Positions 2,551 through 26,103 of a stretch of DNA of 26,303 bases are shown in pieces; positions within the stretch are counted from its first letter, which is position 1, and the number at the start of each line of letters is the position of its first letter. Under the pieces are notes generated by a model. It was not told where the DNA came from, did not search any database, and was given only the letters and a program-made list of their open reading frames with translations. Origin of the DNA: a virus; the IMG/VR virus record IMGVR_UViG_3300009506_000168, positions 1 through 26,303 of that record. One strand, written 5' to 3'. A program made the position numbers and the translations under genes.

Positions 2551-3111
2551 ATGAAATCGATTCTATTAGTTCTACTGATTGCCGGAATAGTGGCGGCACA
2601 ATTTAATTATTCAGGATATCGCGACACTGTTGCCGTTACCGCGTTCAATGCGGACAGTTCCGGAGTCACAAGAGCATTCGAGTTGTCACAGTTCGAGAAT
2701 CTTCGTGTTCATGCAATGGCTAACGATACGTCATCCGCTGGATACGACGGGGATTCGATTCAATTTCAATGGGGCATTCAGCTCGGGGATATTGTGATTA
2801 ATTCCTCAGCAAAGCGAGATACGACATGGCTTGAGAAGATCCTTGTTGACACGTTCGACATAATGACAGCAGGAAATCTCGTCGCACCGGTTAAAACTAC
2901 GGACAGTCTCGGGTTCGTCGGGCAGGCGCGATTGTTTATAGATACATCAAATGTTACCGGGTATGCCATACAGAGTCGGGCGGTAGTACCGTATTGGGCA
3001 CCAATATTCCGCTTCTGGTATGCCGGTATCGGTGACAATATCACTGGTTCATACGTCCGCCTGATATTCGGGCAGACACGACGGCAGTATTCAGTTGTCC
3101 ACAATCAATAA
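2551..3111 (+). CDS. Exported protein of unknown function
   Basis: This 186-aa protein starts with a clear Sec signal peptide: MKS, a hydrophobic core (ILLVLLIAGIV) and a probable cleavage after VAA near residue 16. The mature part is Ser/Thr/Asp-rich, has alternating polar and hydrophobic strands, contains no Cys, and ends with the basic stretch YVRLIFGQTRRQYSVVHNQ. GAGG overlaps the terL stop 5-8 nt upstream of the ATG, so it is translated with the late operon. It sits between terminase and portal, where tailed phages do not normally encode exported proteins. The overall size and strand-rich C terminus resemble the exported gene at 8812, but homology is not established. No function can be named. 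Confidence 0.8.
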   Translation: MKSILLVLLIAGIVAAQFNYSGYRDTVAVTAFNADSSGVTRAFELSQFENLRVHAMANDTSSAGYDGDSIQFQWGIQLGDIVINSSAKRDTTWLEKILVDTFDIMTAGNLVAPVKTTDSLGFVGQARLFIDTSNVTGYAIQSRAVVPYWAPIFRFWYAGIGDNITGSYVRLIFGQTRRQYSVVHNQ

Positions 3112-8811: not shown

Positions 8812-9306
8812 ATGAAAAAAATTATCGTTTTTTTAATCGTAATCTGGGCCGTTGCAGTGTCTACGGCTGGCGTGCCGACTCTTGCCACATTGGAAAACAT
8901 GGAATACCAACTCGTAGAATCGAACGAGGTAGGCGGGGTGGTTGACACCATGAGGCTTACCGGGGCGACTTCCGATACCGTGATAAAAAAGCATAATATC
9001 GAGCCCGGTTGGTCCTATGTTATTGTATCAACCGACTCGATAAATGCGGTTACCGACAGTATCCAGCTTCGGTGTATTATGTATGGTTCCAACCGTACAA
9101 CGGTAATGGGAAATCACCTTGTTGGAACCGATTCGACCACGGCAATTTACACACACCTTTTGCCAATAGGGGTAACCGCTTTCGGAAGCTGCTTTAGCCT
9201 TCGATATACCCGTGCTGCGGCAACCACCAAGACGGCAATATATCGGTGGGAGCTATACAGAGTAAGGAAAAACACGATTAATCAGAACTGGAATCAACGA
9301 CGATAA
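8812..9306 (+). CDS. Exported protein directly after the capsid gene
   Basis: This 164-aa protein has a strong Sec signal peptide (MKK, then IIVFLIVIWAVAV, with probable cleavage near STAG at residues 17-20). The mature region is beta-rich and Thr/Asp/Ser-rich, with two Cys (QLRCIMY and FGSCFSLRY) and a basic C terminus (YRWELYRVRKN). AAAGG precedes the ATG. Head decoration proteins often sit at this locus, but a cleavable signal peptide would send the product to the periplasm. The gene is bracketed by two hairpins. No family recognised. Confidence 0.8.
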   Translation: MKKIIVFLIVIWAVAVSTAGVPTLATLENMEYQLVESNEVGGVVDTMRLTGATSDTVIKKHNIEPGWSYVIVSTDSINAVTDSIQLRCIMYGSNRTTVMGNHLVGTDSTTAIYTHLLPIGVTAFGSCFSLRYTRAAATTKTAIYRWELYRVRKNTINQNWNQRR

Positions 9307-9356: not shown

Positions 9357-9866
9357 ATGGGTGCAGAACTGGCAAAACTCGGGACATACCCGAAATCAGA
9401 CAAGAAAAACAAGGTTTATTACGTCAACCGTCTCGATTACGGGTTTTCTGTTCCGAAGGTTGATGGAGATGGAAAGAAAATTCAGCGAACAAATACGGCA
9501 ACTGGTCTTCCTATAACCAATGGACGAGGAGAACCGGAGTTTTTCGAAGAGCCTGTAATGTTTCAGAGGTGGCAGGACCGTTTCACGGAAACCGGATACT
9601 GGAGCGTTTACGAGGTCACCAGCAACACTCCGAAAGTGATCGCTGAAAAGCTCGAAGAGATGGCGAAGTCTCCGAAAGCCCAAGTCATGAGTGAAAAGGC
9701 CTTTATTGAGTTCACCAACCCGGCACTTGCTAAACATATCGCCGAAACTTCAGACCTCGAAGAAGAAAAGAAGATGCTCAACGAGGACGTGGCGAAAGCA
9801 AAGGCCGAAAAGAGCAAACTTGAGGAAGAAATCGCACGACTTAAACAGAAGGCAGGAGTCAAATAG
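9357..9866 (+). CDS. Putative minor head protein with C-terminal coiled coil
   Basis: This 169-aa protein begins MGAELAKLGTYPKSDKKNKV. A compact N-terminal domain (to about residue 95, containing FQRWQDRFTETGYWSVYEV) is followed by a long charged coiled coil (about 133-167, SDLEEEKKMLNEDVAKAKAE). AGAGGA lies upstream of the ATG. It lies between the capsid region and the adaptor gene, and its TAG overlaps the next GTG by one base. The family is not recognised; head-associated is inferred from position. Confidence 0.65.
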   Translation: MGAELAKLGTYPKSDKKNKVYYVNRLDYGFSVPKVDGDGKKIQRTNTATGLPITNGRGEPEFFEEPVMFQRWQDRFTETGYWSVYEVTSNTPKVIAEKLEEMAKSPKAQVMSEKAFIEFTNPALAKHIAETSDLEEEKKMLNEDVAKAKAEKSKLEEEIARLKQKAGVK

Positions 9867-10582
9867 TGTTCGCCGACCTCTATTCCGATCTGGCAAATGT
9901 ATTCAACGAATGGCTGGAGAATTCCCCGACCGGTGGAGATTATGTCACCAACTTAACGGTAGACTATGCCAACAGGGCACAGGATTCTATCTGGAGTGAT
10001 CCGCCTACCGGGTGGACCCTGTTAACTCGTTCCGCTCAGTTGACCATTTCCAGCCTCGTTGCAACCCTCCCCACTGGTGACGGAATGCTCATTCATGTTT
10101 ATTCCGACGACGACCAGGACGGGAAGCCGGATCGGTATTATTTCAAGGATGGTCGCCTGATAGACGGCTTCAAGTTTCTTGCGGGATTCGCTAAAGCTAC
10201 CGGCCACACCCGGCAGATACAGTTTTATCAATCTCCGGTTGAGCCGGTTTATTGCGATTACCAAGTAAAACTCGATGCATTCACCGGAAGCGGGGACGAG
10301 TATCTGTTTTTCCCAAAAAACATCATGCTCGGGAAGATGCAATATTTACGGTGTATCGATAAAGGGCTGCTCAAAGAGGCCGAAGCGATCGGAATTAATT
10401 TCGAGCGAGAGCTTTCGAGATTCAAGGGGCAGCACCAGAACACAACTGAAAACCCAGGGATATCGGTGAATGATTTTGCCGGGAGAGAGGTATACATTCC
10501 CCGCCATAATTTAAGTCAGGGAATGGGCGGAGGTAAATTAGTAGGATCAACGAACGATCAGGATGTTTACCGACATGGCTGA
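9866..10582 (+). CDS. Head-to-tail adaptor-like protein (probable)
   Basis: This 238-aa protein starts with GTG overlapping the previous TAG; CAGGAG lies about 7 nt upstream. The N-terminal segment (FADLYSDLANVFNEWLE, then VDYANRAQDSIWSDPPTGWT) resembles adaptor proteins that bind under the portal in short-tailed phages, where a helix is followed by N-x-A...IW and a Trp motif. A DDDQDGKPDRYYF turn follows near residue 76, and a beta-rich middle ends in a helical segment with LLKEAEAIGINFERELSRFK. It precedes the nozzle-like gene, as expected for an adaptor. This is a fold-level guess from motifs and order. Confidence 0.5.
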   Translation: MFADLYSDLANVFNEWLENSPTGGDYVTNLTVDYANRAQDSIWSDPPTGWTLLTRSAQLTISSLVATLPTGDGMLIHVYSDDDQDGKPDRYYFKDGRLIDGFKFLAGFAKATGHTRQIQFYQSPVEPVYCDYQVKLDAFTGSGDEYLFFPKNIMLGKMQYLRCIDKGLLKEAEAIGINFERELSRFKGQHQNTTENPGISVNDFAGREVYIPRHNLSQGMGGGKLVGSTNDQDVYRHG

Positions 10583-12485
10583 AGCAAGTAGAAAGCCGAT
10601 AGCTATAGATTTCGCCGACTGCTCCGGGGGGTGCGTCTCCGAAGAAGTGGAACACCCGACGAGGTTTTTCCGGAATCAGATAAGCGATGAATCGATCGGA
10701 TTCGTTTTAAGGAAATCAGGGCTTTCAAAGCAACCCGGAGCGGTTGGTCTCAGTTCTGGGACAACCTTTACCACCTTTCTGCGCGGCATGTTTTCACACC
10801 GGCAGTTTTCCGGGACAGAGAGCCTATACGGGATATCCAACGGTGAACTTTCCCAGATATCTACCTCTGACGGCTCGCTTACCTCAAAGTATTCCCTTGG
10901 GGGTCCGGTAAATGAGGCATGGGCCTGCGATGCATTCGGAAAGAAATTCATTTGCAACGGTAATTCTGTTGTGAAAATTGAGGGAACAACCGCCTATCAG
11001 GTGGGTATCACCGCCCCTTCGGGGGGTACTGCGGCGGCGGCGTCCGGAGCCGGGCTGTCCGATGGAGTGTACAGCGTCTATGTCGGATATGCCAGAAAAG
11101 TGGACGGTGTGAACGTTCTATACAGTTCCGGTGAAAGCCTCGGGGAAATCACGCTAGGAACCGGTAGCAACCGGATATCGATAACTGTTCCGAATAGCGG
11201 CGACCCCCAGGTAAATAATAAAGTTGTCTGGATAAAATCACCCGACGAACTGATCCATTACTTTTTCTATGAAACCGATGATAATACCACAACTTCAATA
11301 ACGATCAGCGCGGATACCCAGAAGGAAACGGCGATCGTTTATGAATATTCATCCGCCGACAACGGACTTCCTCCTGCCATCACCTTCATTTTTTCGTTCG
11401 CTGGTCGTCTCTGGGGAATCATCAACAACGTTATCTACTACAGCAATGACGGTACATTCTCCGCGTATGATGTCGAGCGATGGGGGGCTGCGAACTTCCG
11501 GACTACACAGTATAAGCTGACCGGAATTTTCTCTGTAGGTTTGAATCTGTATTTCAATACCGACAACGGAATCCTGATTCTTCCATATGGAGATATCAAT
11601 CAAAAAGAATACCTTATTGATCCGCGATGGCGTTTTTACGATATGCGCACGGTTGCGAACTGGAACGGCGGGGTGATCGGGCTTACCAACCAGGGTGTAA
11701 AGATGTTCGACGGGGAGCGGTTCACGTCTTTTGATTTCGGGTACCCGATACGGGAAAAAATAGATGTAATCTATCAATCGCAGAACAATTTCCGACCCTG
11801 TGGATTCGTTTATCGTAAAAAATTCCGGGATGAATATCATTTGCTTTGGCAAGATCCGTCTGTCTCGGTTTCGGTGAATAACATTCATGCAGTGCTTAAC
11901 CTTTCCAGCGCACTATGGGCAGATTTCAACAATTACAATCTTTCGTGGGAGTTCCAGCCGGTGAGCGGGAATTATCCGGTGATATTCGAGAGTAACAACG
12001 CTCTTTACATAGGACAGTCTCACACTTACGCAAGCAAAGTGTATGCCGAATCACTTACCACATCGCGTATATCGAATGTGTACGACTCTTCTGGAACTCT
12101 GATTTCATCGGCAACCGATAAGCAGTCATATATGAAGAGCAGGCATCACCTTGAGGCGGTAAACGGAAGAATGAGAATTGACAAAATATATTGTCATTCT
12201 CAGAATGAAAAATCTTTTGATATACGAGTATGCTCGGGAACCGACAGGTCAAAAAAATCGGCATGGATTACGGTGAATTCAACCGCTACCGCCCCGCTGG
12301 TATTCCCCGTCGTTTTCCCTGCCATATTCTCTTCGAACGACGGAGATATAAACAGAAAAAAAATGCCGTCTCACTTCTGGTGTAAAACCGTTTACACTGA
12401 GGTGCGACAAAACGCTGACGATATTGGTTTTAGGCTTCTTCAGCTCTCGCTTATTGGAGAGGTAGAAACGAATAATTATATATGA
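10563..12485 (+). CDS. Tail nozzle / packaged-DNA stabilisation-type protein (P22 gp10-like role)
   Basis: This 640-aa protein is nearly all beta. The N-terminal PTRFFRNQISDESIGFVLRK followed by SGLSKQPGAV resembles the opening of stabilisation/nozzle proteins, where the polypeptide winds around the adaptor. The middle has propeller-like repeats, for example FAGRLWGIINNVIYYSNDG, LNLYFNTDNGILILPYGD and WNGGVIGLTNQGVKMFDGE, and the length suits the P22 gp10/T7 gp12 class. The overlap with the adaptor gene is 20 nt. ATG 10575 is an alternative start; neither has an ideal ribosome binding site. Confidence 0.55.
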   Translation: MFTDMAEASRKPIAIDFADCSGGCVSEEVEHPTRFFRNQISDESIGFVLRKSGLSKQPGAVGLSSGTTFTTFLRGMFSHRQFSGTESLYGISNGELSQISTSDGSLTSKYSLGGPVNEAWACDAFGKKFICNGNSVVKIEGTTAYQVGITAPSGGTAAAASGAGLSDGVYSVYVGYARKVDGVNVLYSSGESLGEITLGTGSNRISITVPNSGDPQVNNKVVWIKSPDELIHYFFYETDDNTTTSITISADTQKETAIVYEYSSADNGLPPAITFIFSFAGRLWGIINNVIYYSNDGTFSAYDVERWGAANFRTTQYKLTGIFSVGLNLYFNTDNGILILPYGDINQKEYLIDPRWRFYDMRTVANWNGGVIGLTNQGVKMFDGERFTSFDFGYPIREKIDVIYQSQNNFRPCGFVYRKKFRDEYHLLWQDPSVSVSVNNIHAVLNLSSALWADFNNYNLSWEFQPVSGNYPVIFESNNALYIGQSHTYASKVYAESLTTSRISNVYDSSGTLISSATDKQSYMKSRHHLEAVNGRMRIDKIYCHSQNEKSFDIRVCSGTDRSKKSAWITVNSTATAPLVFPVVFPAIFSSNDGDINRKKMPSHFWCKTVYTEVRQNADDIGFRLLQLSLIGEVETNNYI

Positions 12486-13288
12486 AAAAATCATTATTAT
12501 CACTATTTTTATTAGCCTTTAGCGCGTATTCACTTGATAAATACACTATTCCTTATGCTGCTACCGATACGATGACGAAAGCTAATTTCGATTCGAATCA
12601 TGATACCACAAAGGCGTATATTGACAAAGTAATCGATACGGTCAATCTTAACGTACCACGATATACTCAAAACACTTACACCCACGACCTAATAATGCCG
12701 TTTCTCCGTGTCGATACGATTCGAAGCAATACGAACATCGATTCTATTTGCGGAAGCCCGAGGATAGACACATTATCAAGCGATTCGGCTTATGCTTATA
12801 AATCGACCTCTCACTATACAAATGCGGATTCTGCAACAATAGGAGTAATTACAAACACAAGAATAAATTCCGATTACTCGGTAATTACTCATGAAAATTC
12901 TGATACTGTTACCTCTTTGTACAGTAGAATGAGAAGGCTTACGGCGTACAGTGGAGATTATAACGGAGGTATGGCAATAGGTCAGGCTCTTATTGACGAC
13001 GACGACACCGCGACCCTGAACGATATATTTCAATTAGGATCTCAAAATTTCGGCGGATTTTTAAATGTTGTCAGCCATGCTGGAGACCTGGTTTATGGAC
13101 AAATAGTAATAGACGAAACAGGCGATATTGTTGAAATATACGACAAAAATAATAATGTATCTGTAACCGACGCGGATGGATATCTTTGCTTTGTGGCAAC
13201 CGGTACGTCGTTCAGGACAAATGTAATAAACAGGACTGGAGCACAGACAAGATTCTATTTCCAGTTTTTCGGTGATTTTAACCCTTAA
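12482..13288 (+). CDS. Exported fibre-like protein
   Basis: This 268-aa protein begins with a signal peptide (MKKSLLSLFLLAFSAYS, A-Y-S cleavage near residue 17). The mature chain is Asp/Thr/Ser/Asn-rich and fibre-like: ANFDSNHDTTKAYIDKVIDT recalls the repeated N-D-N segments at fibre N termini, and the last 100 residues look like a compact beta domain (GDLVYGQIVIDETGDIVEIY through TRFYFQFFGDF). It has two Cys. The start overlaps the nozzle gene stop (ATGA), but the nearest SD-like sequence (GGAGAGG) is about 19 nt away, so translation probably depends on coupling. The gene is AT-richer than its neighbours. Confidence 0.75.
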   Translation: MKKSLLSLFLLAFSAYSLDKYTIPYAATDTMTKANFDSNHDTTKAYIDKVIDTVNLNVPRYTQNTYTHDLIMPFLRVDTIRSNTNIDSICGSPRIDTLSSDSAYAYKSTSHYTNADSATIGVITNTRINSDYSVITHENSDTVTSLYSRMRRLTAYSGDYNGGMAIGQALIDDDDTATLNDIFQLGSQNFGGFLNVVSHAGDLVYGQIVIDETGDIVEIYDKNNNVSVTDADGYLCFVATGTSFRTNVINRTGAQTRFYFQFFGDFNP

Positions 13289-13301
13289 TATATTGATTTT
13301 T

Positions 13302-13706
13302 ATGGCAAACCAGATAATAAACATATCGCCAAAAACCTCAAATATTCAGGGGCTTTTCCGTGAAGATGAAATAATCATTGTGTGTGATACAACCCTCGGT
13401 GACTTCTCAACCAGCATGCCGGAGGGATATCTTTCAAAATGCCATAAAGTGAGCTTTTATAATATTGGAACGAACGATTTAACGATAAGTTTCAATCCTG
13501 TTTCCCTCCTCTATTTCACGACCGGAAGTGTTTCAAATGTAGTAATCGGTGGGGGAAATTCGGTTGAGATGTTCAACGAACCGACAAGCGGGAAATGGAG
13601 GAGTATTACCGATCCCTCGGTGCGCCTCATTTGGGAGGACAACCGGCTGAAGGGGCAGGTCTATCAGGATGGAGAATGGCACACCTGTATTAAAGGCGGC
13701 TATTGA
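13302..13706 (+). CDS. Small beta-rich virion-type protein, unknown
   Basis: From ATG 13302 the product is 134 aa, starting MANQIINISPKTSNIQGLFR. A GTG at 13272 would add ten hydrophobic residues (MILTLNILIF), which might act as a short anchor; neither start has a visible Shine-Dalgarno sequence. The chain is beta-rich, with CHKVSFYNIGTNDLTISFNP and EMFNEPTSGKWRSITD, a pattern common in distal fibre or tail-tip domains. It overlaps the next gene by one base. Function is not known. Confidence 0.6.
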   Translation: MANQIINISPKTSNIQGLFREDEIIIVCDTTLGDFSTSMPEGYLSKCHKVSFYNIGTNDLTISFNPVSLLYFTTGSVSNVVIGGGNSVEMFNEPTSGKWRSITDPSVRLIWEDNRLKGQVYQDGEWHTCIKGGY

Positions 13707-15793
13707 TGGCTACAGATTTTACCAATATGGTATACGACCCGCAGACCGGGACGACGAAGAAGAAACAGAATCCTTATCTCAACCCGAACGAGACGAGTCA
13801 AGGATATCTCCCGTACACCGGACAGGATTACACCCCCCAGAATCTTGAGCAGGGCAACCAGAATGTAATGGGAACCGCTCAACAGGCCGCGCTTTCTCAG
13901 CCTCAGAATACCGCCATTCAGGATCAAACCACCCAGATGACTCAGAAACTCATGGCCGATCCCAATATGGGCAGGGATTGGACAGGGTACAATAAGGCTC
14001 AGATGTCTAAATTTGACGCCGACCGCGCTTCCGGGGTGAAGGCGTTTAAAGAGACGAATGCGGGAATGGGAGGGGCTGGACAGGTTCAGGATAATCTCAT
14101 TCGGATGGCGCTTACCCAAAATACCGACCGGGGACTCCTCGAAAACGAACTTGAGCAACAGGCGTATGAAAAAGGCATGCAGAATTATATCACCGCACTC
14201 GGCCAGGGACGCGAACAAGGACAATACCTCGATGAATCGCAGCAGAACTACATCAATAACCTTTTGAATGTTCGCGGGGCTTATGAGGGGGAAAGGGCTC
14301 AAACGAGTGCTGAAGCGTTGCAGCGGGAACTCACGGCGGCAAACATAATGTCATCTGAAAAAATAGCCGGAATGGACATCGCCAGCAGTGAGCGAATAGC
14401 GCAGGATAGAAACGTCCTCGATAAATACGGAATCGATGTTCAGAAAGCACAATATGAAGGGTATGACCTCCCGAATGGGCAACACGTCTACGGGCAGGGC
14501 GAACTTGCTGGAATGAAATTCGGTCTTGAGAGTAAGGATCTCGAAAACCAGACCATTGAATTGTTCGGTGGAATGATCGATACCAACGGTGACGGTGTAC
14601 CAGATAAGCAGGTTTTCGGTAAATACGATCTCCTGAATGCAGCCGATAAACGCGATGCTGATCAATTGTATGGTTATGATGTAAGGGATGCTGCTGGAAA
14701 CGTAATCGGGCACGTAAATGGATCTCTACAGCTTGAAAATGATCGTACCGCTATCGAGGCTCAAGGACTCGCTCTCGACCGTGCAAAAATAATGGGGTAC
14801 GACAAAGATACGAACGGTGACGGGGTACCGGATACCCATATTGACGGAGAACTCGATCTCGCCATGAAACAGCAGGGTATCGACCTCCAGAGGCTCGGGC
14901 TGGATAAAGATGCGGCTTACGGGTATATTCAAACCGATGCAGACGGGAACCCGGTCATGGATGAAAACGGGAATCCTGTTCGAGTAAAAGGATCGCTTGA
15001 ATTAAAAGTTGAGGAACTTGGTGTTGAAAGAATGCTGGCAGAACTTCAAAGGAGGAGCGTTGATACTGCGGAAATTGAGTCGATTTATGGCTTCATCAAT
15101 AACGAAATTGATGCTGGTCGCGCTTCTCCCGATGATGCGCTTGATTATCTTAATTTCGTATTTGAGAAAAATGGCGTTTCCCTCACCGAAGCGGATAAAA
15201 ACGCCATTTACGGAGAAATAGCGCAGGATTTCAAAGCGCAGGAATATCAATTCGCCCTCGCTAACCCTGAGCTGGCCAACTTTGACGACCAAGGCAACTT
15301 TATCGATTTTACCGAAGAGGGAAAACGGGTATTCAGTAATTATGCAAACAGCACCCTTTACGGTGGGGCCGCCCCGACAGTAGGCGGTGGAAATGTTGCA
15401 CCGTACTACATAGCGGCAGGCAAAATATATGACAGCGAAAACAAGAAAGAGGTGTCTGCTTCTGATTTGGCAATTGCCTTCAGGAACGCCGATAATCCGG
15501 ATAATCAGAATAATGAAAAATATCAGCAATTTGTTGCCAACGCAAAAACGTTCAGCCCGAGAATAAGCAGCACAGGAAGCAATACGATTGGGTATGGTGA
15601 TGTCGGGCTCGGTGATGTTGTGAACGTCGGAGGAAGACTTATGGTCATCACCAGCAAGAAGAGGAACGGACGCGTGGACAATTTCACCATTATGGATGTC
15701 GCAAGCGGAGAGTCAAAATATTTCGACGGTTTCAGCTCCTCGGATGATACGGTGAGGAACTTTGATGCATGGGCAGCAAAATTTAACACATAG
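13706..15793 (+). CDS. Ejection/internal virion-type protein with Asp-Gly calcium-loop repeats
   Basis: This 695-aa protein starts ATG within TGATG, with AAAGGCGG upstream; a TTG three bases earlier is less likely. Residues 1-250 are Gln/Asn/Ala-rich and helical (TEFMA-like low complexity, e.g. ESQQNYINNLLNVRGAYEGE), as in DNA-ejection proteins of short-tailed phages. Residues about 250-445 contain roughly five degenerate 40-residue repeats. Each pairs an Asp/Gly turn with a G-x-L-x-L strand and a helix ending L-D-x-A...GY. Two repeats contain DTNGDGVPD, a textbook EF-hand/thrombospondin-type Ca2+ loop; another has DADGNPVMDENGNPV. The C-terminal 130 residues look like a small globular domain. 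No enzymatic domain is visible. Confidence 0.65.
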   Translation: MATDFTNMVYDPQTGTTKKKQNPYLNPNETSQGYLPYTGQDYTPQNLEQGNQNVMGTAQQAALSQPQNTAIQDQTTQMTQKLMADPNMGRDWTGYNKAQMSKFDADRASGVKAFKETNAGMGGAGQVQDNLIRMALTQNTDRGLLENELEQQAYEKGMQNYITALGQGREQGQYLDESQQNYINNLLNVRGAYEGERAQTSAEALQRELTAANIMSSEKIAGMDIASSERIAQDRNVLDKYGIDVQKAQYEGYDLPNGQHVYGQGELAGMKFGLESKDLENQTIELFGGMIDTNGDGVPDKQVFGKYDLLNAADKRDADQLYGYDVRDAAGNVIGHVNGSLQLENDRTAIEAQGLALDRAKIMGYDKDTNGDGVPDTHIDGELDLAMKQQGIDLQRLGLDKDAAYGYIQTDADGNPVMDENGNPVRVKGSLELKVEELGVERMLAELQRRSVDTAEIESIYGFINNEIDAGRASPDDALDYLNFVFEKNGVSLTEADKNAIYGEIAQDFKAQEYQFALANPELANFDDQGNFIDFTEEGKRVFSNYANSTLYGGAAPTVGGGNVAPYYIAAGKIYDSENKKEVSASDLAIAFRNADNPDNQNNEKYQQFVANAKTFSPRISSTGSNTIGYGDVGLGDVVNVGGRLMVITSKKRNGRVDNFTIMDVASGESKYFDGFSSSDDTVRNFDAWAAKFNT

Positions 15794-15801
15794 GAATTTA
15801 T

Positions 15802-16236
15802 ATGAACTATCGCGACTATCTCACATCGTTAGACGAAATGGAAAGAGGCAAAACGGCCTATTCCACTTCTACGGTTGCCCCGACATCCTCTGGAAGCTCT
15901 ACCATAACATCAAGAGAGCTTGAGTTGCCGGATTCAGGGGGCGGAGGAGGAATGGGCATGATGGATTCTTTCACAAATCTTGGCGACAAGATACAAAAAA
16001 ATTCCATGGCAACCATGCAGATGTTCTACGACTGGCAAAAAGAAGATGCCGACCGGAGAAGGCAGGCAATTCAGGATGCCGAGGCGAAACGGCAATTTAA
16101 TGAAAATATGAACCTTTCACAGCGCGGGGTAAATTTGAACGCGATGGATTATCTTGCCGGAATAAGAAACTCAGCTCAACAGAGGGCGAGTCGTCGGCTT
16201 CCCTTCCGTTCCGCAGTCGGTAGCCTTGTGAGGTAA
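15802..16236 (+). CDS. Small ejection-cluster protein, unknown
   Basis: This 144-aa protein begins MNYRDYLTSLDEMERGKTAY. It has a Ser/Thr/Gly-rich region (PTSSGSSTITS, then DSGGGGGMGMM), a charged helix (YDWQKEDADRRRQAIQDAEA) and a basic C terminus (RASRRLPFRS). TAGGAA overlaps the previous stop and acts as ribosome binding site. Located between two ejection-type proteins, it is plausibly a virion protein packaged in the head. No family recognised. Confidence 0.65.
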   Translation: MNYRDYLTSLDEMERGKTAYSTSTVAPTSSGSSTITSRELELPDSGGGGGMGMMDSFTNLGDKIQKNSMATMQMFYDWQKEDADRRRQAIQDAEAKRQFNENMNLSQRGVNLNAMDYLAGIRNSAQQRASRRLPFRSAVGSLVR

Positions 16237-16238
16237 AA

Positions 16239-17417
16239 ATGGCAAAGAAAACGATATATGAAAGCAAGCGCCTTCCCGGCGTCACCTTCAATTCCTACGA
16301 CGAGGCGTTAAGGGCTGAACAGGATCTCGACCGGCGCGAAAACGAATCGTCGGCAATGGAGGCCATCGGGAAATTCAACCGTTCGGAACCAATGGCCGCA
16401 ATGGCAGAAAAGGCCGGTCCTGATGCATGGGAGACGGCTCCGAAAGAGGACTTGCAGAAGATATCCGAGGGGCAGGTACTCAACGAGATGTACGGCAGCC
16501 CTATGGGGCTTGCTCGCGGTTATGGCTTAACTTCGAACACGTCCGAACCGGCTCAGAAATTCGTAAGCAATCTGAAGGATGAATCGAAGGCAAATGAGGA
16601 AAATCTGAGGTTTAAGGCTCAGATGGAAAAAGACACCCATGAAACAAAATCGAATGAGGAAACCACAAGTGTATACGATAAAAAAATAGCCGAACTTAGG
16701 AGGATTCGGAAAATGCCGGAAGGTCCAGAAAAGGAAGCTGCATACAGCGACTTCGTAATGAGTTCAGCGCCGGGAACGTATTACGGCCTGTCTAATGAAG
16801 GAATAAACAGGGCGGGGAAACGCGCCTACATAACAGAATGGAGTAAAATACCTGCCAAGGAAGAGGGTACGAGGAGGACCACTGTCGCAAAGATCGAAGA
16901 GGAATCGAATACCCCTCAAGGAAAATTCGAGGATGCAACAGAGTTGAGGAAGGAATTCAACAATCAGTCGAAAACGTTCAACGATGTTCGAGACAGCTAC
17001 AACAAAATAGTTGCTTCCGGTAAGAATTCGAGTGCTGCAGGAGACCTTGCATTACTCTTCAATTACATGAAAATTCTCGATCCGGGATCGGTAGTGAGGG
17101 AGAGTGAATTCGCCAATGCTGCTTCAACCGGAGCCTTCGGAGACAGGATGCAGGCGTTAGTTCAGAAGATTATTAAGGGTGAACGGCTTAACGAAAACAT
17201 GAGGAAAGATTTCCTCGATCGTGCAAAAATGCTGTATGACGAGCAGGTTCAGGTACAGCAGGGCCGAATCAATAAGTATACGAACATTGCCCAGAAAAGA
17301 GGGCTGTCGGTTGAAGATGTCATCACACAAGTACCGAATGAAACCAAAACAATACCGAGCGGGCCAAGGGCTGGAACATGGGAAAAGCGGGAAGATGGAT
17401 GGCACAAAATAAAATAA
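16239..17417 (+). CDS. Ejection/internal virion-type protein
   Basis: This 392-aa largely helical protein contains AGDLALLFNYMKILDPGSVV followed by RESEFANA (about residues 267-294). I know that signature from many phage virion proteins of the DNA-ejection cluster. The adjoining segments are FNDVRDSYNKIVASGK upstream and KIIKGERLNENMRKDFLDRA downstream, which belong to the same conserved block. The C terminus, GTWEKREDGWHKIK, resembles the short W-x3-G-W motif that closes such proteins. GAGG lies upstream of the ATG. Precise role is unknown. Confidence 0.7.
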   Translation: MAKKTIYESKRLPGVTFNSYDEALRAEQDLDRRENESSAMEAIGKFNRSEPMAAMAEKAGPDAWETAPKEDLQKISEGQVLNEMYGSPMGLARGYGLTSNTSEPAQKFVSNLKDESKANEENLRFKAQMEKDTHETKSNEETTSVYDKKIAELRRIRKMPEGPEKEAAYSDFVMSSAPGTYYGLSNEGINRAGKRAYITEWSKIPAKEEGTRRTTVAKIEEESNTPQGKFEDATELRKEFNNQSKTFNDVRDSYNKIVASGKNSSAAGDLALLFNYMKILDPGSVVRESEFANAASTGAFGDRMQALVQKIIKGERLNENMRKDFLDRAKMLYDEQVQVQQGRINKYTNIAQKRGLSVEDVITQVPNETKTIPSGPRAGTWEKREDGWHKIK

Positions 17418-18856
17418 CCGAAGATTTTATGACCGATGAAGAGATGGCCGAACTCGAAGCCTCTTTTTCTCCTGAAAACGCTCCGGATGTTCTTTCCGAT
17501 GAAGAGATGGCACAGCTTGAGCAGTCGGTTGCATCGCAAGAAAAAGAGCCCGCAGGAGCGAGCCGGAGCTTTGAAAACAAACTTGGCACACAGCGTATTA
17601 CTTCTTACGGATCGTATTCTGTCCCCGCTTTAGATTTCGGTCCATCTTATAGAGAGCGTGTAAAATCAGATATTGAAGAACAGGCCCAAAAGGATGTTAA
17701 TCGTCAAAACTTAGGGGGAAACGCCCCACTCTCAAGAACTGCTGGAATTATTCAATCAATGGCAGCTCCGATAAGGCAGGCTCCAGGGTCCTATGAAATT
17801 GGAAATATCATCGGAGGAGGCATGAAAAAACTTGCCCCCAAAACACCGCCTCCAGCCTCAAATATGCAGTTTCCTTCGTATGGAACTTATTCTCTTCCGA
17901 AGCAAAACATCGGTGAAATGTATGAAAAATCACCGAATTTTCAAAGCATTGTCGATATAGGTACCGGATCGGCAGAAATACTACCCCCTGCAACCGCTGC
18001 TGCAAAGATAGGAGCCCCCATTATTGGAAAGGCTTTGCCTGCAACAAGCAAGGGATTCAAATCCGCTGCGGGAAGGGTGCAGGGGACAAAAGTAAAAATA
18101 AACACACCTGAATTTAATAAAGGCGCTGCGAACGAACTCTATACAAAGTATAACGTTTTCGGAAACGCAAAGAGCGTTAAAAAGCAATGGCAAACAAAAA
18201 TCAGCGATACATACAAACAGGTTAAAGACAAGATTTTAAACAGTGAAACAATGCTTGATCCTGACAATTACACTTTTGTCGATGACATCTTTTCTCAGGC
18301 TGAAAGATCGGCGGAAAAATTCGGGAAAAGCAAAACCGCTGTAATCGATATAAAAAAAGAACTCAATAAAATGAGAGAATCTTTTGACGAGGCTTATCCG
18401 GAAGGAAAAATTAACCTCCTTGAAACACAAATGGAGAAACAGGTAATCGGTAAAAAGGGAGATTGGATTGCCGAGGCAGGAAGCAGAAGCGGAAACCCGA
18501 GCGCTCCGGTAAGTGCACAGGCGCACAATGCCCTATACGATGCAATGAAAACAGTAGTTGAGAATAAGGGTTCTCCAGGAATTAAGGAACTCAATAAGCA
18601 GTTATCTGAGATGATACCAATGGAAAGGGCGGCGTCAAGACAGGTGCTCGTTTCAAATAGAAAAAACCTGATACCGCTTGATGATTATATCGGAGGTCTC
18701 GCCGCTGTATCGTCTGCTGCCCATGGAAACCCCCTGCCAGCAATGTTGGTGGGTGCAAATATTTTATCTAAGAGCCCAACGACTGCAAGCCTGTTAAACA
18801 AAACGGGAACCGCTCTCGAATGGCTTGACGAACTTGGAAAAACAAAAATCAGATGA
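17399..18856 (+). CDS. Ejection/internal virion-type protein with duplicated N-terminal motifs
   Basis: This 485-aa protein (a 492-aa form from ATG 17378 is possible) begins MAQNKITEDFMTDEEMAELE. A near-copy, SDEEMAQLEQ, follows about 25 residues later. A second duplicated motif is SYGSYSVPALDFG, then PSYGTYSLPKQNIG about 90 residues on. Similar short motifs act as docking peptides in other assemblies, but that is inference. The rest is helical with an Ala/Gly-rich amphipathic stretch (TAAAKIGAPIIGKALPATSK). The C-terminal block, IPLDDYIGGLAAVSSAAHGN with KSPTTASLLN, resembles the end of other phage virion proteins. Confidence 0.65.
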   Translation: MAQNKITEDFMTDEEMAELEASFSPENAPDVLSDEEMAQLEQSVASQEKEPAGASRSFENKLGTQRITSYGSYSVPALDFGPSYRERVKSDIEEQAQKDVNRQNLGGNAPLSRTAGIIQSMAAPIRQAPGSYEIGNIIGGGMKKLAPKTPPPASNMQFPSYGTYSLPKQNIGEMYEKSPNFQSIVDIGTGSAEILPPATAAAKIGAPIIGKALPATSKGFKSAAGRVQGTKVKINTPEFNKGAANELYTKYNVFGNAKSVKKQWQTKISDTYKQVKDKILNSETMLDPDNYTFVDDIFSQAERSAEKFGKSKTAVIDIKKELNKMRESFDEAYPEGKINLLETQMEKQVIGKKGDWIAEAGSRSGNPSAPVSAQAHNALYDAMKTVVENKGSPGIKELNKQLSEMIPMERAASRQVLVSNRKNLIPLDDYIGGLAAVSSAAHGNPLPAMLVGANILSKSPTTASLLNKTGTALEWLDELGKTKIR

Positions 18857-18866
18857 AAGGTTTTAT

Positions 18867-19325
18867 ATGTTAAGAGTTTTTTTTACAGCGTTGGTTTTAA
18901 CCATTATTTCCTGCTCAAAGAAAGTGATAACCACCGAGGTGTTGCCGGAACCTCAGAAAGATAAAGCAATGATGGTTTTCCCGGTTGAAGAATCTCCAAA
19001 GGTTGAAGCACCTGCCGTTCCGATGGAAACGTTCAAGCAAACAGTTATCGTCTATTTTAAATTCGATTCTGACGAATTACAGGACAGCGAACGGTGGAAG
19101 ATAGTTAATATTGACAAACCAGTTGAACTCGTCGGAGGCACCTGTCCTATCGGTGGCGATGATTACAATTATACTCTAGGTCTTCGCCGAGCATATTCAG
19201 TAAAAAAGTTGTTCGACCAAAATTACGTAAAAGTTGAATCGGTTAAATCGGTGGGTGAGAAAGAATTGGTAACGACGGATAAAAGTGAATACCGCCTAAA
19301 CCGAAGGTGTGAGATAAAATACTGA
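18867..19325 (+). CDS. OmpA-like outer-membrane lipoprotein
   Basis: This 152-aa protein has a lipoprotein signal (MLRVFFTALVLTIIS followed by Cys16; the +2 Ser predicts outer-membrane sorting). A Pro/Glu-rich linker (about 22-55) follows, then an OmpA C-terminal domain (57-152): VIVYFKFDSDEL, VGGTCPIGGDDYN, LGLRRAYSVKKLF, VGEKEL and LNRRCEIKY. This domain normally binds diaminopimelate in peptidoglycan. The Arg of RRA is kept, but the Asp of the usual HTD motif is replaced by Cys93, and NRRVEI reads NRRCEI. AAAGG precedes ATG 18867; an in-frame upstream start would destroy the signal peptide. It sits immediately upstream of the exported tail fibre, overlapping it by one base. Confidence 0.8.
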   Translation: MLRVFFTALVLTIISCSKKVITTEVLPEPQKDKAMMVFPVEESPKVEAPAVPMETFKQTVIVYFKFDSDELQDSERWKIVNIDKPVELVGGTCPIGGDDYNYTLGLRRAYSVKKLFDQNYVKVESVKSVGEKELVTTDKSEYRLNRRCEIKY

Positions 19326-21529
19326 TGCGCGTTTTATTGGCAGTATTATTATTTGTGTCGATAGCCTTTTCCGAGTTTCTTGAAACTGACAGCATTCTCG
19401 GAAACAGTAATCGATTACAGATAAATGACACCCTGGTAACACAGGTAAAGCCTACTTCTTCATCGCCGATTACTATCGCCTGCTTTGACAGCGGGAGCAA
19501 TGTTGTTCGGGAGTGTTCTTTATCGGTAATAAGTGTCGGGTATGTTGACTCCGCAGCCGGTGCCGATCGCTTGGATGGGATGCATAAATCGTATTATGAT
19601 ACCGTTGGTGACGGAAGAACGTTCTGCGACACTCCGTATGTCCCTTACGCTTTAACCGATACCTCTTATTCAAAAACAATAATGAAACAGAGAACGAATT
19701 ACCTTGAAATCGAGGCGCTTGATACCGATTATGTTGCTTTAGAAATGCCGGATAATTACTATCAATCAATGGCAGCCGATACAGCAGGGTATATATATAC
19801 AATTCATTATTTTGGCACCCCTGAATTGTTAAGGATGACAGGCGAGGTAGGCGTTCATGATGATTTTACTATAAAAAGCAGAACCTGGTCAGAAATATAT
19901 TGCGACCCTTCTACCAACATTCTTTATGCTACTGCAACCTATTCCTTAGGAAACCAGGGGCTTTATATATGGGATGCCGATTCCGTCGATTTTATTTTTT
20001 ACGATTCGGTTTATTATGGAGCATCATCGAGAACGTTCAACGGCATAACCATAAATGAATCTGGAGATATATTCGTTTCTGCTTTTGACAATTACATTTA
20101 TGAGCAAACCAGTGGAAGCGGTCCTTTTTCACCGTATGCGGATAGACGATACTGGACTTCGGTAACGAATATTGGAGATACTATATGGGCTTTTACGAGT
20201 AATGCCGGAGTGTATATGAAAACTCCTCTCGGATCATCGTTTGCTTCATACGATGCAACGGTGAGGGGGTATGGTCAATCGTGGACGGATAGCAGCGGAA
20301 ATATTTATGTGTTATGCGCTTCTGCACCTTCAGGAGTTTATCGCCGTGCTTACGGTACAACAACTTTTGAATTGTACCATGCATACAGCCTCACAAGCGT
20401 TCTGGGTGGAACATATTTAAACGGTAGTAATTATATATGTGATAATGTTGCAGCGGGAGATGTTTATAAATATGATGCCGATTATTCTTATACTGTAAAC
20501 AGATTTACGGTAAATGGATCTCAGACAATAAACGGCGTTCTTTCTCTTCCGATGAACATAGGAACAAAACCGATCGACCTGTATTCCACGGTAATGAATG
20601 ATAATTTAAATGCTGACTTATTAGACGGGTACCACTCAACAAATTTTTTGTTTTCCGGTAGTGTAGACTCTGGAACGATCCCTGTATCTGATGGCGATCA
20701 ATTAAATAATTCTTCAGCTACCGATACTGGGAATACTTTTCGTATAAGAGAAGATTTATATCTTGATAGTAGTTTAACAGTTGATGGCTTTGTTGGTTTA
20801 GGGATCACTCCGTCTGCAGACGACCTTTTTCTTGCGTACTATGATCCTTTAAATACAACCAATGCAAATCTTTTTTCTTGTCAATATTATCCTTCATGCA
20901 CGTCTACTGGTTCATATGTATATTACGGTTTCAATTTTAATTGTAAACAAACCGTTGGGACCGGTGCAACCAATTCAGGTTTTTACGCGGCCATGAATGC
21001 TGTTGCTTATAAAAATGGTGCCGGAACACTTTCATGGCTACTTGGAAATCAAATAAATTATGGGATGTATACTGATGGTGCCGGAACTGTTACAAATGCA
21101 ATAGGGAACTATTTAAGATTAAGATGTAATGCCGGGGTAATTACAAACGGATATGATCTTTATATCGCTGCTCCAGGGTTGGTTGGTGGCACTGTCACAA
21201 ATGAATGGGCTATTTATTCCTTGCATGATGCTCCGAGTTCATTTATCGGAAATATGCATATCGATGCTGATGATAGGTACATTAAATTTGGTGAGGCTCA
21301 GGATGCAACCATAGGATACGAAAGCGATGGAGATCTTCATTACAATTCTCAAGCGGTTGGATCAGGAAACCATGTTTTCGAAGGTGGTGAAATAGAAACC
21401 GATTCTATAAAAGTAGGTTCTTCGGGTACTTCGTTTACTGAGTTAAAAATGTATGATGGCACTAACGACACTTTATTTATTTCGGCAGGAGGTAAAACTT
21501 GGACATTTCTACCAATTGCAGATCAATAG
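19325..21529 (+). CDS. Tail fibre with Sec signal peptide
   Basis: This 734-aa protein begins MRVLLAVLLFVSIAFS with A-F-S cleavage near residue 16. The next in-frame ATG lies over 200 bases inside, so the leader is integral. Two fibre signatures occur: ADRLDGMHKSYYDT (about 80-93) and ADLLDGYHSTNF (about 431-442). Between them is a propeller-like region with repeated strands such as AADTAGYIYTIHYFG and INESGDIFVSAFDNYIYE. The C-terminal part has HIDADDRYIKFGEAQDATIG and GDLHYNSQAV, common in fibre tips. It has ten Cys, unusual for a cytoplasmically assembled fibre. Likely receptor binding; the export signal is the anomaly. Confidence 0.8.
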   Translation: MRVLLAVLLFVSIAFSEFLETDSILGNSNRLQINDTLVTQVKPTSSSPITIACFDSGSNVVRECSLSVISVGYVDSAAGADRLDGMHKSYYDTVGDGRTFCDTPYVPYALTDTSYSKTIMKQRTNYLEIEALDTDYVALEMPDNYYQSMAADTAGYIYTIHYFGTPELLRMTGEVGVHDDFTIKSRTWSEIYCDPSTNILYATATYSLGNQGLYIWDADSVDFIFYDSVYYGASSRTFNGITINESGDIFVSAFDNYIYEQTSGSGPFSPYADRRYWTSVTNIGDTIWAFTSNAGVYMKTPLGSSFASYDATVRGYGQSWTDSSGNIYVLCASAPSGVYRRAYGTTTFELYHAYSLTSVLGGTYLNGSNYICDNVAAGDVYKYDADYSYTVNRFTVNGSQTINGVLSLPMNIGTKPIDLYSTVMNDNLNADLLDGYHSTNFLFSGSVDSGTIPVSDGDQLNNSSATDTGNTFRIREDLYLDSSLTVDGFVGLGITPSADDLFLAYYDPLNTTNANLFSCQYYPSCTSTGSYVYYGFNFNCKQTVGTGATNSGFYAAMNAVAYKNGAGTLSWLLGNQINYGMYTDGAGTVTNAIGNYLRLRCNAGVITNGYDLYIAAPGLVGGTVTNEWAIYSLHDAPSSFIGNMHIDADDRYIKFGEAQDATIGYESDGDLHYNSQAVGSGNHVFEGGEIETDSIKVGSSGTSFTELKMYDGTNDTLFISAGGKTWTFLPIADQ

Positions 21530-24414: not shown

Positions 24415-26103
24415 ATGAAAAATTTATTATTTATTTTATTGTTTGTATCGTTTGCCCGATCAGCCATTACAACCGTAGGGCAATCAGGGACATCTCAGGA
24501 TTTAAGTGGTGCGCTTGCCGCTTGCGGAAATAACGATACGGTAATGTTGGTTGCCGCTGCCGATTCGGTATTTACATTATCTGCATCCCGCGCAGGAATG
24601 AACGCCGGTATGATGTTTATGTCTGAGCCTGGATTTTATCATAAAGTCGCCGCCACTATAACATATGGCGGAACCCATATGAGAGTTGAGGGAACAGGGG
24701 TAAGATTTAAGGATATATTTTTTTATTATCCTTCTGGTGCCGCATCCGGATATAATTATTTCATTACTGCATGGAATCCATTTACAGTTGAAAACTGCAT
24801 TTTCAAAAGCGATTCATCGGCTAGATCTACGTTGCTGCGCGGTTTCATCTTGAATGATATAGGTATTAGTTCGGCATCAATAAAACGCTCTATTTTTTGG
24901 AACATTTACTCGGGGTTGGCATGTAATTCAGATTCCTCGAATTCCGCTTCCCATGTAGTTGTTGACTCGTGCCTTTTTTACGAGTCAAACGCAGGGTTTG
25001 GGCATGGATGGCAATTTAAAAATACCATAATAATTGAGGGTGGAGAAATAAGCGTCCAGGCGGTAGGGATTGACAGCGTGCAGTTCTATAAATGTTGGTT
25101 CGACCAGAAAAATAGGGGAAATGGAGAGTTTTGTACATGGGATGGAGTAGAAAGAAACACCTATGGAAACTCAGTAAAACAGTGTATTTTCATTAATGAC
25201 GACCACGTTTTTTTGATGTGGGACGCCTGGATATCTGGAACTGTGCAAAACTGTTTGTTTTTTACGATGGCTGCATCTACCCATAATATTTTTAACCATA
25301 GAGGGTTTAATCTGCCTGGGGTAGATTACGCTGCTCGCTACGTACAATTCATAAATAATACAGTTTATGGATTGACTAATTCATCGTCTGCATTTTATCT
25401 TGCATCAAGTGATCCACAGGATTCTGTATGCGATATTTCGTTAGAACATATATGGTTTGGTGGGTTAGGCCCTATAGATACGTGCTGGGAAATGGCGCGG
25501 GATACTATACGGTATTCAATATGGCAAAACAATCCGGTTAATGGGCCATTTCCGACTATGCACGATAATACTATTAGTGCAGGAGTTTCCTATTTGATAG
25601 ACACTACAGTCAATCGATGGTGGCACAAACAGACATCAGTATATGATACAGTCGGGGCGAGAGGAAAATTATTCGTGGTGGGAAACACATCCGCCATTAC
25701 TGACTCTTCTATAACGTGGGAATGTACACTCGATTCCATGTTTCGGCATGACAACGAGATATATGATACTACATTTATAGGTGGAATGTTAGGATTTTTG
25801 ACTAAGAATTCATGGATCACAGGAGATACGGCAACGTTTTATATTGACACATCTACCGATGCCGCAACGTGGGGGGAGGCGGGAAATTCTGAAATTATTG
25901 CCGGGGAAACAGTTGCATTACAAACAGATAATTTGCCGCCATCCACATTATTTTATATTCGTCAGCGAGTAGAAAATTCAACCATAGGTGTTTATGATAC
26001 CTCGGCAATTGATTCGTTCACTACGTTCGCCGCTTCGATTGCCAATAAAAAAGGTCATATCTGGGGCAGTTTTAGGCAGTGGCTTAGGTCCGCGCTTAGA
26101 TGA
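24415..26103 (+). CDS. Tailspike-like right-handed beta-helix protein with signal peptide
   Basis: This 562-aa protein starts MKNLLFILLFVSFARS (cleavage near A-R-S, residue 16), with GAGGA upstream. Residues about 25-330 show the coil pattern of parallel beta-helices: VRFKDIFFYYP, VENCIFKSD, VDSCLFYES, YKCWFDQ, VKQCIFIND, VQNCLFFT and VQFINNTVYG. Cys stacks at the same place in five coils (128, 186, 227, 257, 280). The rest is a beta-rich C-terminal region with a basic end (FRQWLRSALR). Such folds include polysaccharide lyases and tailspikes; I see no catalytic residues I can name. A receptor- or polysaccharide-binding role is the best guess. Confidence 0.7.
   Translation: MKNLLFILLFVSFARSAITTVGQSGTSQDLSGALAACGNNDTVMLVAAADSVFTLSASRAGMNAGMMFMSEPGFYHKVAATITYGGTHMRVEGTGVRFKDIFFYYPSGAASGYNYFITAWNPFTVENCIFKSDSSARSTLLRGFILNDIGISSASIKRSIFWNIYSGLACNSDSSNSASHVVVDSCLFYESNAGFGHGWQFKNTIIIEGGEISVQAVGIDSVQFYKCWFDQKNRGNGEFCTWDGVERNTYGNSVKQCIFINDDHVFLMWDAWISGTVQNCLFFTMAASTHNIFNHRGFNLPGVDYAARYVQFINNTVYGLTNSSSAFYLASSDPQDSVCDISLEHIWFGGLGPIDTCWEMARDTIRYSIWQNNPVNGPFPTMHDNTISAGVSYLIDTTVNRWWHKQTSVYDTVGARGKLFVVGNTSAITDSSITWECTLDSMFRHDNEIYDTTFIGGMLGFLTKNSWITGDTATFYIDTSTDAATWGEAGNSEIIAGETVALQTDNLPPSTLFYIRQRVENSTIGVYDTSAIDSFTTFAASIANKKGHIWGSFRQWLRSALR

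Follow-up and report, generated by a model that had tools for sequence, protein, structure and literature searches.

A phage protein of 695 residues carries in its middle five tandem hairpin-helix units, and among relatives this middle part is swapped as a module, being either a hairpin array or an all-helical one. We put at about one in two the chance that the protein heads the ejection cluster of a short-tailed phage, with the array as an exchangeable spacer or scaffold in which two hairpins are braced by Ca2+. The gene was found in a 26.3-kb virus record (IMGVR_UViG_3300009506_000168; the whole of this stretch is called the window below), which also encodes a terminase (PF04466, E 1.2e-22) and a capsid protein of the SU10_MCP type (PF17236, E 7.3e-13). 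It occupies 13706-15793 on the plus strand, counted from the ATG at 13706 (the ORF list starts it at the TTG at 13703); its parts, the nozzle-position gene and the cluster genes described below lie on the same strand.

According to this reading, the protein would be the first gene product of the ejection-protein cluster and would probably be injected with the DNA. The array, placed either in the head or in a channel built across the host envelope, would set the reach or the packing surface; its size, its exchange and its predicted fold suggest such a role. Two of the five hairpins would have acquired a Ca2+-binding Dx[DN]xDG loop, and the ion would stiffen these hairpins wherever calcium is plentiful, as in the released virion or in the envelope. 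Since there are relatives that lack some or all of the loops, a role for calcium as an optional brace is more probable than one as a motor of DNA entry.

Tandem units and exchange of array types

The array covers 14459-15046 and consists of five units of 35-42 residues, each with a beta-hairpin followed by helices, on a rough plan of G-Y, a turn, V-x-G-x-L-x-L and then the helices. Units 2 (14567-14671) and 4 (14795-14920) carry the stretch DTNGDGVPD, at 14579-14605 and 14807-14833, respectively. The sequence-only reading had described calcium loops as part of the repeat in general; this holds for these two units, while units 1 (14459-14566, turn LPNGQHV) and 3 (14672-14794, turn DAAGNVIG) lack a calcium pattern and unit 5 (14921-15046) has a double turn, DADGNPVMDENGNPV, without Dx[DN]xDG. 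The periodicity itself, also claimed from the letters alone, was borne out at the place indicated. The best ungapped self-match of the protein scored 87 at an offset of 76, equal to two units; shuffling gave at most 62 in one set of 300 and at most 57 in one of 200. When the ten pairs of units were compared, pairs 2-4, 3-4, 3-5 and 4-5 were equalled by 0, 0, 0 and 1 of 300 shuffles, and pair 2-5 by 5 of 300; pair 2-3 was indistinguishable from chance in this self-comparison (104 of 300). Unit 1 is the weakest, with 5 to 117 of 300 shuffles equalling its match to the other units, yet it is clear in the homologues. The repeats are therefore real.

Two near orthologues of the protein were found: L095 (IMG/VR 3300026026_000059, 65% identical) and L096 (contig JAFGMP010000421.1, titled as a Latescibacterota MAG and phage-like in gene content, 66% identical). 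Identity of the array to these two is 0.74 and 0.69, with a third-codon identity of 0.43 and 0.39, so the array is kept by selection; it is conserved about as well as the N-terminal domain (aa 1-211, 13706-14338), for which the values are 73% and 81%. The C-terminal segment (aa 561-695, 15386-15790) is 47-55% identical in the orthologues. A more distant homologous array (E 1e-18 and 3.7e-18) lies in a 754-aa open frame of the record G009 (IMG/VR 3300032053_007138). It has seven units: an A-B-C block of about 103 residues occurs twice and is joined by one further unit. Their turns (DPATGQHV, DAQGVHH, NPVTGAKI, DDQGNVV, DKQTGRYI, DANTGVLV and KPDGTW) contain no Dx[DN]xDG. The hairpin array is thus seen in four contigs in total, the window included.

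Two further homologues, L028 and G002, share with the window a related N-terminal domain (42% and 29% identical), the same gene place and a tandem array; the array, however, is long and all-helical, with an offset of 77, and contains neither hairpin units nor Dx[DN]xDG. A comparison of L028 with G002 places a sharp junction at residue 204 of the homologue: up to that point 68 of 196 residues are identical, and from there on 537 of 588, which indicates that the array and the C-terminus were exchanged as a block. This junction, with the genes given as 8001-10388 of L028 and 1267-3681 of L021, is a likely recombination point inside the gene. The homologues are few and all uncultured: two near ones, one with a distant array and two with another array type. 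Since the unit-4 loop is missing in one orthologue, the G009 array is free of loops and those of L028 and G002 are helical, it can be concluded that the array is an exchangeable middle segment, to which calcium is an optional addition.

Predicted structure and searches for relatives

Structure prediction, which the sequence-only reading had proposed as a check, modelled the array as a chain of successive strand-turn-strand-helix elements. The AlphaFold2 input for window 14339-15094 was a five-row alignment in which G009 supplied three overlapping rows and the window and L095 one each, and the model reached a mean pLDDT of 80.6 and a pTM of 0.75, the pLDDT of the five models being spread from 80.6 to 39.7. 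The array on its own is thus predicted to be an ordered chain of hairpin-helix units. The full-length model was poor (pLDDT 51, pTM 0.28); it contains a long helix at 124-198, of low confidence, and its C-terminal segment is better than the rest, with pLDDT blocks mostly of 66-87.

No match to the array model was obtained with Foldseek at E 0.001 in PDB or BFVD, and none with VIA-align at a Z of at least 2 among 932 chains. The best BFVD match (E 0.0095) pointed to phage vB_DshS-R5C, whose 147-aa ORF (taken by its length to be the matched protein) has a similar double turn without Dx[DN]xDG. A match to heparinase I (24 residues, probability 0.96, E 0.36) may reflect a common loop shape and was not counted as evidence.

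Nothing in Pfam, PHROGs, PDB sequences or a set of 50,697 phage records matched the hairpin array significantly either, so that a hairpin-helix repeat outside the Pfam and PHROG families would stand in a probable ejection gene cluster. Searches for close relatives were empty but for four records at E 0.8-9, judged to be chance matches, among them one in a 154-codon Caulobacter phage gene and two in pilot proteins of Microviridae. In viral_contigs, a set from which the window's own record was possibly left out, nothing fitted a strict DNA pattern for the calcium hairpin. The broader pattern YGY.D..GN.V.G gave 56 loci there, one of them a true array homologue (L064, in record G009); by eye, 43 of the loci belonged to one unrelated nozzle-type protein, matched by chance, and 12 to other proteins.

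Profile searches gave a similar picture. The array profile found no relative among 90 candidate stretches of genome_contigs, and the full-length profile found one, L096, among 189. Against 14 records, a list that did not include G009, the array profile matched L095 and L096, with no match in SU10, Mx8, CRP-901, Kapi1, MW202867 and seven other virus records. A profile built from single units of G009 found L095 (E 4.7e-9) and L096 (E 4e-5), and its match to the window was weak (E 0.22; 2 of 300 shuffles score higher). Among 64 genomes of the phylum given for the L096 MAG, the array profile matched one, the MAG contig itself, and L096 therefore gives no firm host. A look at glycine-rich stretches had raised the idea that the N-terminal domain is kin to the same-placed proteins of CRP-901, Mx8, MW202867, Kapi1 and G009; this failed by hhalign.

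Calcium-type loops and their possible role

The DTNGDGVPD stretches of units 2 and 4 fit the Dx[DN]xDG motif and have D at position 9; two such motifs in a protein of this kind were attained by 70 of 20,000 shuffles. The unit-2 loop is kept in both orthologues, as DTNGDGVPD in L095 and DSNGDGVPD in L096, whereas the unit-4 loop reads DTNGDGAAD in L096 and is missing in L095. In all five loops of the three proteins, a small number, D1, N3, D5, G6 and D9 are invariant, while positions 2, 7, 8, 11 and 12 vary. The sequence-only reading had named loops without Ca2+ ligands in homologues as what would speak against it, and the outcome is divided, as the ligands are kept wherever the loop exists, and the loop itself is absent from unit 4 of L095 and from G009.

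Both window loops sit between two predicted strands. In PMC3123361, Dx[DN]xDG loops are described in strand-loop-strand settings, with Ca2+ bound in the cases seen there; grafting one between two CD2 strands created a Ca2+ site, and the loops are biased toward periplasmic, surface and secreted proteins. Given this account and the kept ligand positions, we consider it likely that the loops of units 2 and 4 bind Ca2+.

Membership of known calcium-repeat families was also considered for the array and rejected. An EF-hand would have a helix-loop-helix and an acid at position 12; here the loops are flanked by strands and position 12 is V or I in all five, with no acid. Pfam EF-hand_5 matched the array protein at E 6.2, under the family cut-off. 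RTX nonapeptides (GGxGxD) do not occur in the array protein, and the Pfam scans gave no FG-GAP match; with helices separating the hairpins, an integrin-type FG-GAP propeller does not fit either.

The missing acid at position 12 and the EF-hand_5 score would also suit an array that is purely a structural repeat, both DTNGDGVPD stretches being long turns without useful Ca2+ binding. The loss of the unit-4 loop in an orthologue that is 65% identical, and the short turns that suffice in the other units and in G009, point the same way. Against plain turns, the ligand positions stay constant in five of five loops, few as these are, while others vary, and we regard this explanation as a serious one that is nevertheless rather unlikely.

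A D-rich loop of like style, SDDDQDGKPDRYYF, is present in the adaptor-position protein (window 9866-10582). In L095 it reads SDCDSDGKPDFYYF; the L096 version, SDEDQDKKPNRYYF, breaks the pattern.

The sequence-only reading had gone further and proposed that calcium loops in each repeat could let the array fold only after ejection into the periplasm, as a possible ratchet for DNA entry. In such a mechanism the array would leave the head unfolded and fold on periplasmic Ca2+, which would stop back-sliding and help to pull in the protein or the DNA, in the manner of RTX domains in type I secretion. Agreeing with this are the two probable Ca2+ loops of the window and the periplasmic and surface bias of such loops (PMC3123361), as well as the accounts of T7 gp16 as able to refold once through the portal channel (PMC8954989) and of RTX secretion as a Brownian ratchet (PMC8486122). 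For a ratchet, however, calcium loops would be expected through most of the array and its homologues, yet they are found in two of five units in the window, one of five in L095 and none of seven in G009, and L028 and G002, with their helical arrays, have none. This distribution bears out neither calcium loops as the defining feature of the array nor calcium-driven folding or entry, and the array protein has no RTX motif. AlphaFold2 also models the loop-free units of the array, a weak indication in the same direction. The capsids of released virions admit ions, and thus the periplasm would not be the first place where the array meets calcium. We therefore hold this mechanism to be highly improbable; for the window's lineage alone it is possible. 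Equally doubtful to us is an arrangement, in some short-tailed phages, in which Ca2+ would lock the hairpin array of an injected protein once it reaches the envelope. Channel assembly or DNA entry would then include a step that depends on calcium, and phages would exchange array types to match the host's calcium level or the width of its envelope. The natural series of two, one and no calcium loops offers a test bed for a role of calcium in ejection. In the open-access literature we found no report of calcium-binding ejection or internal virion proteins and, judged by titles and abstracts, nothing evidently related on tandem repeats in such proteins.

Gene cluster and comparison with known systems

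Ejection of the array protein is suggested by the order of genes, as it has no detectable relation to the ejection-position proteins compared. Upstream lies the nozzle-position protein (10563-12485; phrog_8040, head closure Hc3, E 2.6e-6); at E 1e-3 it has relatives in L095, L096 and L028, and the same-place frame of G009 is not among them. Downstream follow a small gene of 144 aa (15802-16236), a 392-aa protein (16239-17417, phrog_13634) and a 492-aa protein (17378-18856), the last of the presumed cluster. The same succession follows the gene in six contigs, the window among them: a small gene of 134-165 codons, one of about 390-460 and then one of 320-660. The C-terminal half of the 392-aa protein matches 10 phage records (E 1e-20 to 2e-6), including P22-like DNA-transfer proteins and virion proteins of Mx8 and CRP-901. 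Among the five contigs compared, blastp at a cut-off of E 1e-3 links the small protein and the 392-aa one only to L095 and L096, and the 392-aa protein is matched over residues 1-137 and 1-120. The 492-aa protein has weak relatives (21%) in G002 and L028, and none at E 1e-3 in L095, L096 or G009. Judged at the sequence level, the cluster is mosaic, its other genes being unrelated in part between contigs.

In the 400-codon gene (16239-17417 in the window, 9760-10998 in L095, 10563-11768 in L096) the first 120-137 residues are kept at 63-65% identity and the remainder is replaced in the orthologues; in the window, that remainder is the part with kinship to P22-type DNA-transfer proteins. No PHROG was hit at E 0.1 by the corresponding proteins of L095 and L096. 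Just past the cluster, the ORF at window 18825-19325 resembles a lipoprotein and matches the OmpA family weakly (PF00691 at E 5.6e-5, under the cut-off; phrog_7897 at E 7.6e-7); judged by eye, L095 and L096 have ORFs like it behind their clusters. Also by eye, several ORFs of the structural region, at 2551-3111, 8812-9306, 12482-13288, 19325-21529 and 24415-26103, start with a hydrophobic, signal-peptide-like stretch, which is unusual for virion proteins. The contig L006 (IMGVR_UViG_3300010413_002554) has a terminase identical to that of the window (508 of 508 residues) and stops before the array gene.

The label "ejection-type" given to the array protein from its letters thus holds as far as its neighbourhood goes, that is, a cluster of four genes of which one is related to P22-type DNA-transfer proteins; it does not extend to the protein's own sequence, in which tblastn and hhalign found no relation to the known ejection proteins compared, a weak test given how fast ejection proteins diverge. 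This lack of relation would also fit a protein of the virion or of host interaction that stays behind at ejection, such as an outer component of the tail or neck, as would the similar loop in the adaptor-position protein of the same phage and the usual occurrence of calcium-type loops in exported or surface proteins (PMC3123361). The gene follows that of the nozzle and immediately precedes the small gene and the relative of P22-type DNA-transfer proteins, a position that argues against it. So do the variable size and mosaic make-up, which PMC8954989 describes for ejection proteins. We find a non-ejected protein unlikely and prefer an ejection-cluster protein, presumably present in the virion, with an exchangeable array.

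Among known systems, such a protein would stand closest to the P22-type cluster (gp7, gp20, gp16) and to gp20-24 of SU10, which were named ejection proteins since they are missing from a release intermediate (PMC9509320). The likeness consists in a cluster after the tail-nozzle region, a gene two places downstream related to P22-like DNA-transfer proteins, an SU10_MCP-type capsid, and mosaic proteins of variable size (PMC8954989, PMC9509320). The array protein differs in having no sequence relation to the proteins compared; for SU10 the sole comparison was the array profile, which gave no match, and the portion of the SU10 account at hand describes no hairpin repeats for its ejection proteins. 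With the Dx[DN]xDG calcium-binding loops of strand-loop-strand settings and calcium blades, units 2 and 4 share the motif, D9 and the predicted place between two strands; the Ca2+ site is a predicted one, and the loops are set in a chain of hairpins and helices for which Foldseek (E 0.001) and VIA-align (Z 2) gave no PDB counterpart. With the RTX domains of type I secretion, the array has in common the notion of an exported protein whose repeats depend on calcium, and differs from them in the absence of GGxGxD, in loops confined to two of five units and in the helices between its hairpins.
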